DNA from: an uncultured Microbacteriaceae bacterium
GTDB taxonomy: Bacteria > Actinomycetota > Actinomycetes > Actinomycetales > Microbacteriaceae
Reading direction: 5' to 3'
Length of the DNA stretch: 9,539 bases
NCBI GenBank assembly: GCA_946481135.1
Contig: CAMLMQ010000109.1
Location: 1 to 9,539 of the forward strand
Shown here: positions 1,216 to 7,000 of the stretch, in pieces
Numbering within the stretch: position 1 is the first letter of the stretch
How the letters are laid out: each line of letters opens with the position of its first letter
The notes under the pieces: model-generated
Told to the model about the DNA's origin: nothing
Seen by the model: only the letters and a program-made list of their open reading frames with translations
Databases searched by the model: none
Made by a program: the position numbers and the translations under genes

Positions 1216-1864
1216 CGACCGGATGCTCGGGCAGGTACGGCCCGAGCCCGAGGTCGACGAGAACGACCCGCCCCGCGTAGCGCGACCCCGGTTCGCGCAG
1301 CAGGCCCGCCTTCTCGGCGCCGAACGTGACGGTCAGGTCGGCGGGGAGCACGACGGGGTCGGGCACCGCGCCGTCGTCGGGTCCGATGCCGCTCGGCAGG
1401 TCGACCGCGACCACCCGCGGGCGCGAGGTCGACTCCAGGGCGGGCAGCACGTCGGCGACGATTCGACGGGCGTCGCCGCGAAGCGCGGGGGAGGCTCCGG
1501 TGCCGGTCCCGAGGATGCCGTCGACGACGACGTCCGCGGATGCGGCGAGCGTTCCGACCTCGTCCCGGTCGGCCCAGCTCGCCCCGGCCGTCTCCGCCGC
1601 GGCTCCCGCCTCGGCGTGGAAGCGCGACCCGGTCGCGACGAGGTCGACGCGCACGCCCTCCGTCGCGAGCTCGGCGGCGGCGAAGAGGGCGTCTCCGCCG
1701 TTGTCGCCCGACCCGACGAGCACGAGCACCCGGCGCGGGGCGAGGTCGCGCAGCTCCGCGGCCAGGGCCGCCGCGGCGCGGCGCATGAGCGGCTCGCCCG
1801 CGTCGAGCAGCGGCTGCTCCGCGGCCCGCACCTGCGCCGCCGTATAGCCGCGCCGGGGCGTCAT
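1202..1864 (-). CDS. nnrE: NAD(P)H-hydrate epimerase (YjeF N-terminal domain protein)
   Basis: Metabolite-repair enzyme that interconverts R- and S-NAD(P)HX so that the ATP/ADP-dependent dehydratase can restore NAD(P)H; cytosolic. The 220-aa protein covers one YjeF_N Rossmann-like domain. Seen: VLVGSGDNGGDALFAA (about residues 48-63; the glycine-rich nucleotide loop, usually G.GNNGGDG), VVDGILGTG (113-121), VAVDLPSGIGPD (152-163) and LTVTFGAEKAGLL (177-189), all in canonical order. The C-terminal dehydratase domain found in fused YjeF proteins is absent, so NnrD must be encoded elsewhere. The start ATG overlaps the GNAT stop codon as ATGA (1861-1864), implying translational coupling with that upstream gene. 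The 3' end runs 14 bp into the opposing Ddn-like gene. Confidence 0.92.
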   Translation of the reverse strand: MTPRRGYTAAQVRAAEQPLLDAGEPLMRRAAAALAAELRDLAPRRVLVLVGSGDNGGDALFAAAELATEGVRVDLVATGSRFHAEAGAAAETAGASWADRDEVGTLAASADVVVDGILGTGTGASPALRGDARRIVADVLPALESTSRPRVVAVDLPSGIGPDDGAVPDPVVLPADLTVTFGAEKAGLLREPGSRYAGRVVLVDLGLGPYLPEHPVVTAE

Positions 1865-2145
1865 CGGGCGGCGAGAAGCGACCGGCGCTCGGGATGCGCG
1901 GCGAACCAGTCCGCGACGAACCAGCAGGTGGGGTGGATGGGTCCGGCACCGCGGGCCTCGACGTCATCGACGGCGAACTCGACGAGCTCGGCGGCGTGAC
2001 CCTGGCCGCGGAACTTCGGCACGGTGACCGTGTGGTGCATGACCGTTCCCGATCCGTGATCGAGGTACTCGAGCACGCTCACCAACTCGTCGCCCTGTCG
2101 GAGGACATAGCGGTGGGCGTCCGGCTCGTGCGTGATCTCGCTCAC
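1861..2145 (-). CDS. Short GNAT-family N-acetyltransferase (COG2388/YidJ type)
   Basis: A 94-aa protein resembling the minimal GCN5-like acetyltransferases of COG2388. Seen: MHHTVTVPKFRGQGHAAELV (about residues 36-55) carries the RGQGHA acetyl-CoA pyrophosphate loop, and PIHPTCWFVADWFAAHPE (69-86) carries the conserved Cys74 and the Trp/Phe-rich C-terminus of the family. Its substrate is unknown. The GTG at 2143-2145 is chosen because the family begins with residues like SEITHEPDAHRYVL. The frame stays open upstream to 2397, but that part has low-complexity Gly-rich composition and no homology that I recognise. TACCCT lies seven bases before the GTG and there is no Shine-Dalgarno, so translation is probably leaderless. 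It is the first gene of a two-gene operon with nnrE. Confidence 0.87.
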   Translation of the reverse strand: MSEITHEPDAHRYVLRQGDELVSVLEYLDHGSGTVMHHTVTVPKFRGQGHAAELVEFAVDDVEARGAGPIHPTCWFVADWFAAHPERRSLLAAR

Positions 2146-2158: not shown

Positions 2159-2176
2159 TCGGTGGATCTTTGGTGA

Positions 2177-2208
2177 ATCTTGAGGGTTGACGAGGTTGCA
2201 TCTTGAGG
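2177..2208. repeat. Two direct copies of ATCTTGAGG upstream of the GNAT operon and the 6C-like RNA
   Basis: ATCTTGAGG occurs exactly at 2177-2185 and 2200-2208, 23 bp apart (about two helical turns), with a partial ATCTT at 2166-2170. TTGACG at 2187-2192 lies between them. The pair sits about 20-55 bp upstream of the GNAT -10 and upstream of the structured C-rich region, so it is a plausible activator or repressor site for one or both. The regulator is unknown. Confidence 0.4.
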
Positions 2209-2318
2209 AACCTGCGGCAGATTGATCTCAGACGGAACGCGACCCCCCGAAGCGATCCGGACTCGGGCGGGACCCCCCGATGAGAACCCGAAACTCTCAT
2301 CGCCGCCCGGATGAGCGA

Positions 2319-2444
2319 GGGGGCCGGACATCCCCCCAGCACCGGCCCCCCGCTCTCCCCCAGATTCCCCCGTGTAATACCCAGCAACACCCCCCATGAT
2401 CGGGAAAAGCCCGGTGCTCCCCCCAGCACCGGGCTTTCCTGTTT
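2319..2444 (+). ncRNA. Candidate 6C-type small RNA (two hairpins with C6 loops)
   Basis: The 313-bp gap between divergent genes has no convincing protein gene, but on the plus strand it folds into two strong hairpins. The first has a perfect 9-bp stem (2319-2327 with 2342-2350) and a 14-nt loop containing CCCCCC (2332-2337). The second has a perfect 13-bp stem (2406-2418 with 2425-2437) closing a loop of exactly six C's and runs into TTTCCTGTTTCCT. The exact 15-mer TCCCCCCAGCACCGG occurs in both (2331-2345 and 2418-2432). Known: the actinobacterial 6C RNA is defined by two stem-loops each with six or more C's, often ending in an intrinsic terminator, and in mycobacteria its C-rich loops pair with mRNAs. 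The 55-nt linker, also C-rich (C5-C6 runs at 2357, 2367, 2390), seems longer than usual. The 5' end is not defined; no TAnnnT -10 was found between 2160 and 2319. Confidence 0.6.
2406..2444 (+). terminator. Intrinsic-terminator-like hairpin ending the 6C-like RNA
   Basis: A perfect 13-bp stem (AAAGCCCGGTGCT paired with AGCACCGGGCTTT), a CCCCCC loop, then the moderately U-rich CCTGTTTCCT. On the minus strand the same stem is followed by only one further T, so the plus-strand reading is favoured. It ends about 20 bp before the gpx start and would separate gpx from the upstream RNA. Confidence 0.65.
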
Positions 2445-2446
2445 CC

Positions 2447-2452
2447 TAGGCT
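2447..2452 (+). promoter_or_regulatory. -10 element (TAGGCT) of gpx
   Basis: TAGGCT matches TAnnnT and lies six bases before the gpx ATG, the spacing expected for a leaderless mRNA. Its -35 region (about 2424-2430) would fall inside the 3' arm of the terminator hairpin. No Shine-Dalgarno beyond a GGGG run. Confidence 0.5.
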
Positions 2453-2458
2453 GGGGTC

Positions 2459-2962
2459 ATGGCCATCGACGACAGCGTCCGCAGCATCCCGATCACCACG
2501 ATCGACGGCGCGGAGACCTCGCTCGCCGAGTTCGGCGACCGGACGGTGCTCGTCGTGAACGTCGCCTCCCGCTGCGGGCTCACGCCGCAGTACTCCAAGC
2601 TCGAGGAGCTGCAGCGACGCTACGGCGACCAGGGGCTGACGGTCGTCGGGTTCCCGTGCAACCAGTTCCTCGGCCAGGAACCCGGCTCGACCGACGAGAT
2701 CAAGGAGTTCTGCTCGACCACCTACGGCGTCAGTTTCCCGCTCATGGACAAGACCAACGTGAACGGACGCAACCAGCATCCGCTGTACGCCGCATTGACG
2801 CGCGAGAAGGATGCCGAGGGCAAGGCCGGCAAGGTGAAGTGGAACTTCGAGAAGTTCGTGATCGCGCCCGACGGCAGCGTCAGCCGCTTCCGCCCGTCGA
2901 CCGAGCCCGACGCCCCCGAGGTCGTCGCGGCGATCGAGCGGGGGATCGCTCAGCGGTCCTGA
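2459..2962 (+). CDS. Glutathione peroxidase family protein (thioredoxin-dependent peroxidase type)
   Basis: Cytosolic thiol peroxidase that reduces hydrogen peroxide or organic hydroperoxides, probably with thioredoxin, since Actinobacteria generally lack glutathione. 167 aa, full family length. Seen: NVASRCGLTPQY with peroxidatic Cys39 (Cys, not selenocysteine), GFPCNQFLGQEPG (64-76) with the conserved Gln69, EFCSTTYGVSFPLMDK with Cys85, and KVKWNFEKFVI (126-136) with the Trp128-Asn129 pair of the catalytic tetrad. Cys85 sits 46 residues after Cys39, matching the resolving cysteine of thioredoxin-type enzymes such as plant and yeast GPx. The start is supported by a leaderless -10 and by alignment. 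The 3' end overlaps the S4-protein gene on the opposite strand by 13 bp. Family identity is firm; the reductant is inferred. Confidence 0.93.
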   Translation: MAIDDSVRSIPITTIDGAETSLAEFGDRTVLVVNVASRCGLTPQYSKLEELQRRYGDQGLTVVGFPCNQFLGQEPGSTDEIKEFCSTTYGVSFPLMDKTNVNGRNQHPLYAALTREKDAEGKAGKVKWNFEKFVIAPDGSVSRFRPSTEPDAPEVVAAIERGIAQRS

Positions 2963-5188: not shown

Positions 5189-5207
5189 GTGGAGGGGAGG
5201 TGGGCGA

Positions 5208-5822: not shown

Positions 5823-6305
5823 ATGGTCGAGCCGCACGAGACGGAGCCCGAAAAGGATTCCGAGAACGCCGCGGCGTCGGGACCCTCGAACGACACGACG
5901 GCGCATTTCACCGACGAGTTCGTCGCCCAGCTCGCCGCGATGGAGGCGGGGATCTCGCCTGAGGAGCAGGACGCGATCGCCGCCCTGCCGGCCGGATCGG
6001 CGCTGCTCGTCGTGCGTCGCGGTCCGAACGTGGGCGCCCGGTTCCTGCTCGACGCCGACGTCACCGTCGCGGGTCGCCATCCCGAAGCCGACATCTTCCT
6101 CGACGACGTGACCGTGTCGCGTCGTCACGCCGAGTTCGTGCGCGTCGGCACGGCGTTCCAGGTGCGCGACCTGGGGTCGCTCAACGGCACGTACTTCGAC
6201 GGCGTCCGCATCGAGTCCGCCCTGCTGAGCGATGGAGCAGAAGTGCAGGTTGGCAAGTTCCGTCTGACGTTCTACGCGTCGCGTCTCGACAAGACGGTCA
6301 CGTAG
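5823..6305 (+). CDS. garA: FHA-domain regulator, GarA/OdhI type
   Basis: Signalling protein of 160 aa. GarA/OdhI proteins bind and inhibit 2-oxoglutarate dehydrogenase (and in mycobacteria act on glutamate dehydrogenase and glutamate synthase) until Ser/Thr kinases phosphorylate an N-terminal Thr, which then folds back onto the FHA domain. Seen: an acidic variable N-terminus; NDTTAHFTDEF at 23-33 where mycobacterial GarA has ETTSVF; PAGSALLVVRRGPNVGARFLLD (56-77); GRHPEADIFLDDVTVSRRHAEF (84-105) with phosphothreonine-binding Arg85, Ser99 and Arg100; and SLNGTY (119-124). The core matches GarA almost block for block. It lies nine bases after the upstream gene, and its TAG overlaps the ftsR GTG by one base. 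Regulation of TCA flux by this copy is inferred. Confidence 0.93.
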   Translation: MVEPHETEPEKDSENAAASGPSNDTTAHFTDEFVAQLAAMEAGISPEEQDAIAALPAGSALLVVRRGPNVGARFLLDADVTVAGRHPEADIFLDDVTVSRRHAEFVRVGTAFQVRDLGSLNGTYFDGVRIESALLSDGAEVQVGKFRLTFYASRLDKTVT

Positions 6306-7000
6306 TGGCTGGTGCTGCTTCCCCGGCGCGCACGTCGGGGGGTTCGACCCTTCTCAGCATCGGCCAGGTGCTCGCGCGGCTGAACCCGGAGTTCCCCGAC
6401 CTCACCCCGTCGAAGCTGCGTTTCCTCGAGGAGCGCAGCCTCGTGACGCCCTCGCGCACCGAGTCGGGCTACCGCAAGTTCTCGCCGGCCGATCTCGAGC
6501 GGCTGCGCCTCGTGCTGTCGATGCAGCGCGACTACTACCTGCCACTCAAGGTCATCCGGGCGTACCTCGACGACCTCGACGCCGGCAAGGAGCCGGTGCT
6601 GCCGGGTGGGGCGACCGTGACCGCTCCGTCGATGCTCGCCGCCGACCGCCGGCTCGACCGTGCGGAGCTCATCCGCGAGGCCGGCGCCAACGCGATGCTG
6701 CTCAACGACGCGATCGCCGCCTCGCTCATCGTCGCGGGCGACACCTTCGGCGAGGACGCGCTCGCGGTGCTGAAGGCACTCGTGGAGTTGCAGCGCAGCG
6801 GTATCGAGCCGCGGCACCTGCGCGGGTTCCGGGCGGCGGCGGAGCGCGAGCTCGGCCTCATCGAGAGCGCGCTCATCCCGGTGGCACGTCGCAAGGATGC
6901 GTCGAGTCGGGCGAAGGCGCTGGAGCTGGCGCGGGAGATCGCCGGGCAGCTCGAGGTCGTGCGGTCGAGCCTCATCCGCAGCGCACTCGGTCGGCTCTGA
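6305..7000 (+). CDS. ftsR: MerR-family transcriptional regulator FtsR (Rv1828 type)
   Basis: DNA-binding regulator of 231 aa. The orthologue next to odhI in Corynebacterium glutamicum, FtsR, activates ftsZ; the mycobacterial counterpart is Rv1828. Seen: an N-terminal MerR winged helix, LLSIGQVLARLNPEFPDLTPSKLRFLEE split over about residues 16-43, then RSLVTPSRTESGYRKFSPADLERL (44-67) and MQRDYYLPLKVIRAYLDDLD (73-92). A linker and an alpha-helical C-terminal domain (about 112-231) follow, of the type found in this family instead of a metal or drug pocket. The GTG at 6305 overlaps the garA TAG, indicating translational coupling; no independent ribosome site is evident. Residues 1-14 are low-complexity, so a slightly later start is possible. 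Orthology rests on sequence blocks and gene order. Confidence 0.92.
   Translation: MAGAASPARTSGGSTLLSIGQVLARLNPEFPDLTPSKLRFLEERSLVTPSRTESGYRKFSPADLERLRLVLSMQRDYYLPLKVIRAYLDDLDAGKEPVLPGGATVTAPSMLAADRRLDRAELIREAGANAMLLNDAIAASLIVAGDTFGEDALAVLKALVELQRSGIEPRHLRGFRAAAERELGLIESALIPVARRKDASSRAKALELAREIAGQLEVVRSSLIRSALGRL

Follow-up and report, generated by a model that had tools for sequence, protein, structure and literature searches.

A probable structured small RNA with C-run loops between a GNAT and a glutathione peroxidase gene in Microbacteriaceae

A 9,539-nt stretch of DNA from an uncultured Microbacteriaceae bacterium (hereafter the window) contains a gap in which C runs crowd on the plus strand, and a first-pass annotation had taken two hairpins in this gap for a candidate 6C small RNA. 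The question raised by the locus is whether it encodes 6C, another RNA, or none. The gap was confirmed to be gene-free (2146-2458) and to lie between a GNAT-family acetyltransferase gene on the minus strand, whose start was placed at the GTG at 2145 by alignment with relatives, and a plus-strand gene which, in agreement with the peroxidase neighbour named in the annotation, belongs to the glutathione peroxidase (GPx) family. Homologues were found in Pseudolysinimonas yzui (P. yzui) and in a further Microbacteriaceae genome, G043, and the element is read as a real, structured and probably independent RNA gene that is 6C-like in its loops. The features discussed below are as follows.

1861..2145, minus strand: GNAT-family acetyltransferase gene (Pfam PF14542 on the enclosing frame), divergent from GPx
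2166..2207, plus strand: three direct repeats, ATCTTTGG (2166), ATCTTGAG (2177) and ATCTTGAG (2200), conserved in P. yzui
2212..2236, plus strand: 25-nt block identical in P. yzui, by sequence comparison
2230..2441, plus strand: proposed small RNA of ~210 nt, from folding z-score and homologues, with inferred ends
2233..2259, plus strand: hairpin H0, C6 loop (C7 in P. yzui, C4 in G043)
2264..2309, plus strand: hairpin H1, C6 in the 5' internal loop, apical loop ACCCGAA
2313..2355, plus strand: hairpin H2 (the first hairpin of the annotation), C6 loop (C6 in P. yzui, C4 in G043)
2356..2405, plus strand: C-rich linker, read from the sequence
2406..2437, plus strand: terminator-like hairpin (the second hairpin of the annotation), with a C6 loop in the window only
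2447..2452, plus strand: TAGGCT, 6 nt before the GPx ATG
2459..2962, plus strand: GPx, glutathione peroxidase family gene (Pfam PF00255)
6337..6342, plus strand: G6 run, candidate target, in codons 11-13 of the first MerR-type gene (6305-7000)

Hairpins, C runs and extent of the element

Both hairpins described earlier are present on the plus strand. In the first (2319-2350), nine perfect base pairs enclose a 14-nt loop containing C6, and the hairpin can be extended to 2313-2355; the second (2406-2437) has a perfect 13-bp stem closed by a CCCCCC loop and, in line with the terminator shape ascribed to it, is the sole terminator-like site in 2000-2600 (0.3 expected from shuffles). The 15-mer TCCCCCCAGCACCGG said to be common to both occurs at 2331 and 2418 only, with up to two mismatches allowed, and two copies of it were seen in none of 200 shuffles. 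On the plus strand, C6 runs were located at 2243, 2273, 2332, 2346, 2390 and 2419. The window as a whole holds no excess of such runs (9 against 8.46 expected); it is their clustering that is unusual, with six within 200 nt on one strand, where at least four were reached in 0 of 500 shuffles.

The extent given in the annotation, however, covers only the 3' half of the element, which starts about 90 nt further upstream. Folding of 2229-2441 gave a z-score of -7.6, and the homologues gave -8.7 (P. yzui) and -5.5 (G043). In the window the C runs of H0, H1, H2 and the terminator hairpin are predicted to be unpaired with probabilities of 0.82-1.0 and those of the linker with 0.43-0.9 (two mostly unpaired, one at 0.43), and the run at 2346 is predicted to be paired within a stem. 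The start of the RNA is likely to lie near 2230, and CAGATT at 2218-2223, inside the 25-nt block, is a possible -10 element of its putative promoter.

Homologues and compensatory changes

In all three genomes the RNA sits between GNAT and GPx, such that the three homologues represent one locus. The P. yzui homologue matches at 78% over query positions 11-218 (E 1.6e-37), and the GPx of the window also finds its best match in this species (78%). A DNA search of 398 genomes of the family returned matches in 128 at E 0.1, with P. yzui followed next by a match at E 0.00145; apart from P. yzui (L101), the 30 loci fetched (L101-L130) were taken to contain only short chance matches, judged on excerpts. 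G043 was missed by this search and was recovered with R1, a covariance model built from the window and P. yzui (27.1 bits, E 0.0025). With up to eight candidates scored per genome, R1 matched seven of the 398 genomes at E 0.05, where P. yzui and G043 were kept and the five others were discarded on reading. A 24-nt pattern allowing up to three mismatches was found in two of the 398 genomes, and the second match (L131) was rejected, as it lay inside the reading frame of a membrane-like protein. Of 80 GPx loci fetched, 24 from Microbacteriaceae were read, and a similar gap was seen in P. yzui (L001) alone. Within the genomes searched, the RNA gene is narrow in distribution.

The best-kept stretch, comprising the CTTGAG repeats, the 2212-2236 block, H0 and H1, lies upstream of the coordinates first annotated. 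H1 carries a C run of C6, C5 and C6 in the three sequences and is the only hairpin with a long C run (C5-6) in all of them, the H0 and H2 loops of G043 being C4; CCCCCG, 5 nt and AACCCGAA (pattern CCCCCGN5AACCCGAA) are invariant across the three. This pattern was found at 26 sites in 23 of the 398 genomes against 2 control sites, and inspection by eye revealed no matching arms around these sites other than at the P. yzui locus and in G043.

The comparison of relatives for compensatory changes, which had been suggested as a check, bore out the upstream hairpins. In a hand alignment, fitted to the structure and hence biased in favour of pairing, 7 of the 15 pairs of H0 and inner H1 had both partners changed (5 of 7 for the inner pairs of H1), and non-standard cells occurred in 4 of the 15 pairs (5 of 45 cells). 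The alifold energy of each of these two hairpins lay beyond all of 1000 column shuffles; a MAFFT alignment misplaced parts of the third row. Conserved RNA structure, as generally expected of a trans-encoded small RNA, was found. As a separate observation, a gene of P. yzui whose product looks secreted is preceded by another C-rich leader (L098 1385-1665; G001 C10 near 13352), in which there are several runs of C5-C7 and ACCCGAA occurs twice; this leader scored 6.3 bits with R1, and a search for it as a paralogue gave no convincing homologue in five genomes.

Relation to 6C RNA and other readings

The proposed 6C identity was not supported. No Rfam match at gathering score was obtained over the window, and the best match to the 6C model (RF01066), at 2377-2441, reached 27.1 bits against a cut-off of 47, followed by one of 17.1 bits at 2258-2357. 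The former joins the terminator hairpin to a weak hairpin at 2377-2405 that the annotation had not named. Nor are two adjacent C6-loop hairpins conserved in relatives: they are confined to the window, as the P. yzui terminator lacks C6 and H2 of G043 has C4. Likewise, neither the 15-mer common to both hairpins nor the C6 loop of the terminator, although genuine in the window, is conserved in P. yzui. Of 14 relatives searched (12 first, then G043 and G117, with G001 and G009 repeated), 11 have a better 6C candidate (33-44 bits) elsewhere and three have none; the 11 include candidates apart from the RNA in P. yzui (C2:287312, 36.8 bits) and G043 (C5:585800, 41.5 bits). When read, the 11 candidates show two C-loop hairpins. 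None reaches 47 bits, as is also the case for the 6C of C. glutamicum; three non-actinobacterial controls also gave weak sub-cut-off matches, so that score alone does not decide. Because of the 27.1 bits against a cut-off of 47, and because both relatives have a 6C-like gene elsewhere, the RNA is probably not 6C itself. As judged in P. yzui and G043, the locus is not the genome's own 6C locus. Independently of this, the 11 loci (L081-L089, L168, L169; 33-44 bits) are probable Microbacteriaceae 6C genes which annotation at the cut-off would miss.

The RNA resembles 6C (RF01066; B11 of mycobacteria; cgb_03605 of C. glutamicum) in its C-run loops, terminator hairpin, intergenic position and occurrence in Actinobacteria. 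In contrast to the two hairpins and ~75 model positions of 6C, it has four hairpins in ~210 nt, a C run in the internal loop of H1 and an ACCCGAA loop, and it co-exists with a better 6C candidate. Two stem-loops, with C8 there, are described for C. glutamicum 6C (PMC4046766). Other known RNAs were more distant. Rhizobial SmelA075/SmelA099 (PMC3927594) and Rfam ar14 similarly have 3-4 hairpins, whose variable stems carry like C-rich loops. In them, however, the loop is CCUCCUCCC, reported three or four times per rhizobial RNA, where the window has pure C runs, and they belong to a different phylum. The ar14 model gave 21.4 bits against a cut-off of 58.8, and the RNA does not fall into the ar14/anti-Shine-Dalgarno multi-loop group. 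Scr3202 (RF02833) shares a hairpin with a CCCCCC loop, but matched at 20.5 bits against 52 and over one hairpin only. A limited literature search returned no report joining Pseudolysinimonas with a small RNA, or 6C RNA with Microbacteriaceae.

It could still be envisaged that the locus is a diverged extra copy of 6C, in which H2 and the terminator hairpin are the two 6C hairpins and H0 and H1 an added 5' part. The sub-threshold 6C match would fit such an origin, as would the H2 loop of P. yzui, which is the same as the loop of P. yzui 6C (TTCCCCCCAAT), and a weak match of R1 to the 3' hairpin of the latter (L088; 16.8 bits, E 0.012); additional 6C genes are reported in mycobacteria (PMC9569102). 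Against this, the very hairpins concerned are those that lose C6 in the relatives, nothing corresponding to H1, the best conserved hairpin, was seen in the 6C loci read, and the 6C candidates of P. yzui and G043 lie elsewhere. We regard an extra 6C copy as unlikely.

An improbable alternative, ranking below the extra copy, is a protein sponge, in which repeated hairpins with a common loop motif titrate a protein that binds C-rich loops, following the titration logic of CsrB. Repeated C-rich loops on diverged stems and the invariant ACCCGAA apical loop are compatible with such a role, and G6 antisense sites near starts are few. Indeed, pairing with ordinary G-rich ribosome sites, as suggested in the first-pass annotation, found weak backing: G6 at -25 to -4 occurred at 3 of 548 starts (simple-rule predictions in 0.8 Mb of P. 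yzui), G5 was not clearly enriched (7 against 4 C5 at -20 to -11 of the same starts), and the ribosome site cited as an example, 5191-5200 (GGAGGGGAGG), has no G run longer than 4. Speaking against a sponge, we know of no C-rich-loop-binding protein for 6C-type RNAs, and the title of Mai et al. 2019 reportedly says chaperone-independent.

In the three genomes the RNA immediately precedes GPx and is separated from it by a terminator, an arrangement that would suit a cis leader or attenuator of GPx. However, the likely -10 of a leaderless GPx mRNA is TAGGCT, judging from its sequence and position, and of 26 GPx genes, 23, including those of the window, P. yzui and G043, have TAnnnT 6-8 nt upstream of the start (the 26 are the window, 24 of the 80 loci and G043; the misses are L012, L061 and L077). 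GPx matches were present in 312 of 378 genomes, and among the 30 best GPx loci from these genomes a divergent GNAT-GPx pair was seen in 13. P. yzui and G043 account for the two with the RNA, and the other 11 have only 32-82 nt between the starts and lack it. The distance between the two genes is 57 nt in P. kribbensis (L061) and 68 nt in G117, from the genus group of G043, and neither gave an R1 match. Since the promoter is of the leaderless type in 23 of 26 genes and only 32-82 nt are left in 11 relatives, the RNA is probably not a peroxidase leader, and a cis role is very improbable. Separately, GPx looks leaderless throughout the family. The remaining alternative, a terminator accompanied by chance hairpins devoid of RNA function, draws on the high GC content (0.69), but is hardly credible in view of the C6 clustering, the z-scores and the compensatory changes.

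Putative operator, candidate targets and proposed action

The reading we favour, with moderate confidence, is that of an activator-controlled antisense RNA, accessory and similar to 6C, that acts in trans and is encoded by a separate, lineage-restricted gene between GNAT and GPx. Computation gave a structure conserved in three genomes, C runs predicted to be unpaired, a terminator-like end, a separate promoter of the leaderless type for GPx and, in both relatives with the RNA, a better 6C candidate at another place. On this basis, an RNA of ~210 nt from the plus strand of 2230-2441 would expose C runs from H0, H1, H2, the terminator hairpin and the C-rich linker. Its transcription would depend on an activator acting at a promoter that contains the CTTGAG direct repeats, and the exposed C runs would pair in trans with G runs of a limited set of mRNAs. 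Such pairing may lower target expression, as reported for the 6C-type RNA B11 of M. abscessus (PMC10470900), where six G's in the eccB4 5' UTR are described and mutating only one of the two loops does not abolish repression. The action would be 6C-like, and the gene separate from 6C and restricted to its lineage.

The repeats at 2166..2207 form a putative activator operator. An 11-nt repeat spacing is typical of OmpR-type regulators, and a consensus scan detected no sigma-70-type site in 2000-2600. The tandem pattern, searched in five genomes with up to two mismatches, occurred once in P. yzui, at the RNA locus, and three times in P. kribbensis (with one control hit there), and no site was found in G043, G117 or G002. 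As a lead only, the repeats resemble the CopR site of C. glutamicum (PMC3140484). We also observed CTTGAG-type 11-nt repeats ~75 nt upstream of the 6C candidate of P. kribbensis (L089; G009 C1:1041084-1041102) in the same orientation, a site that was spotted by eye before the tandem-pattern search. It was the one operator-like site among nine 6C loci scanned (L081 and L084 were omitted, as the loop expression did not match). In the same genome, identical CTTGAG-repeat copies (L173 and L176; G009 C1:14537 and C1:3467392) precede what we read as a glycosyltransferase-like gene.

Nine GGGGGG matches occur in the window, and the single one on the plus strand, 6337-6342, lies in the first MerR-type gene, where 12 continuous pairs with H1 are possible (-25.0 kcal/mol). 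The MerR gene was present in 14 of 139 sources, all within the window and 28 stretches (L251-L278). G6 was found within 90 nt before the GQVL codons in three of three genomes with the RNA and in one of 11 without it (L266); as the window was the discovery case, the proper test is 2 of 2 against 1 of 11, among related genomes. Glycine-rich codons could explain this co-occurrence. Ranked by energy among 549 starts, the P. yzui MerR site came 4th with H2, 67th with H1, 131st with H0 and 156th with the apical loop, and 97th when the best loop was taken. These ranks are not decisive, and the MerR G6 is regarded as a candidate target.

A broader proposal, which we hold to be doubtful, is that multi-C-loop RNAs with C-run and invariant ACCCGAA hairpins form a new family which, in the Pseudolysinimonas group, occupies the GNAT-GPx gap. 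The RNA would be a further regulator of the 6C kind, controlled by a response regulator that has its operator upstream of 6C in an RNA-lacking sister species, and would co-evolve with the MerR G6. If true, the new family would connect cell-division control with a signal from the envelope. What 6C does in Actinobacteria, and on which targets, is known only in part, and a second, differently built C-loop RNA in the same genomes, which some relatives have and others lack at a single gene pair, lends itself to a natural comparison that could address the function of C-loop RNAs, the sharing of targets and the division of expression with 6C. In the 6302-6342 region, the stop of the FHA gene overlaps the GTG start of the MerR gene (TAGTG), with the G6 run following, and this FHA-MerR gene order is what we take to be that of garA/odhI-ftsR.
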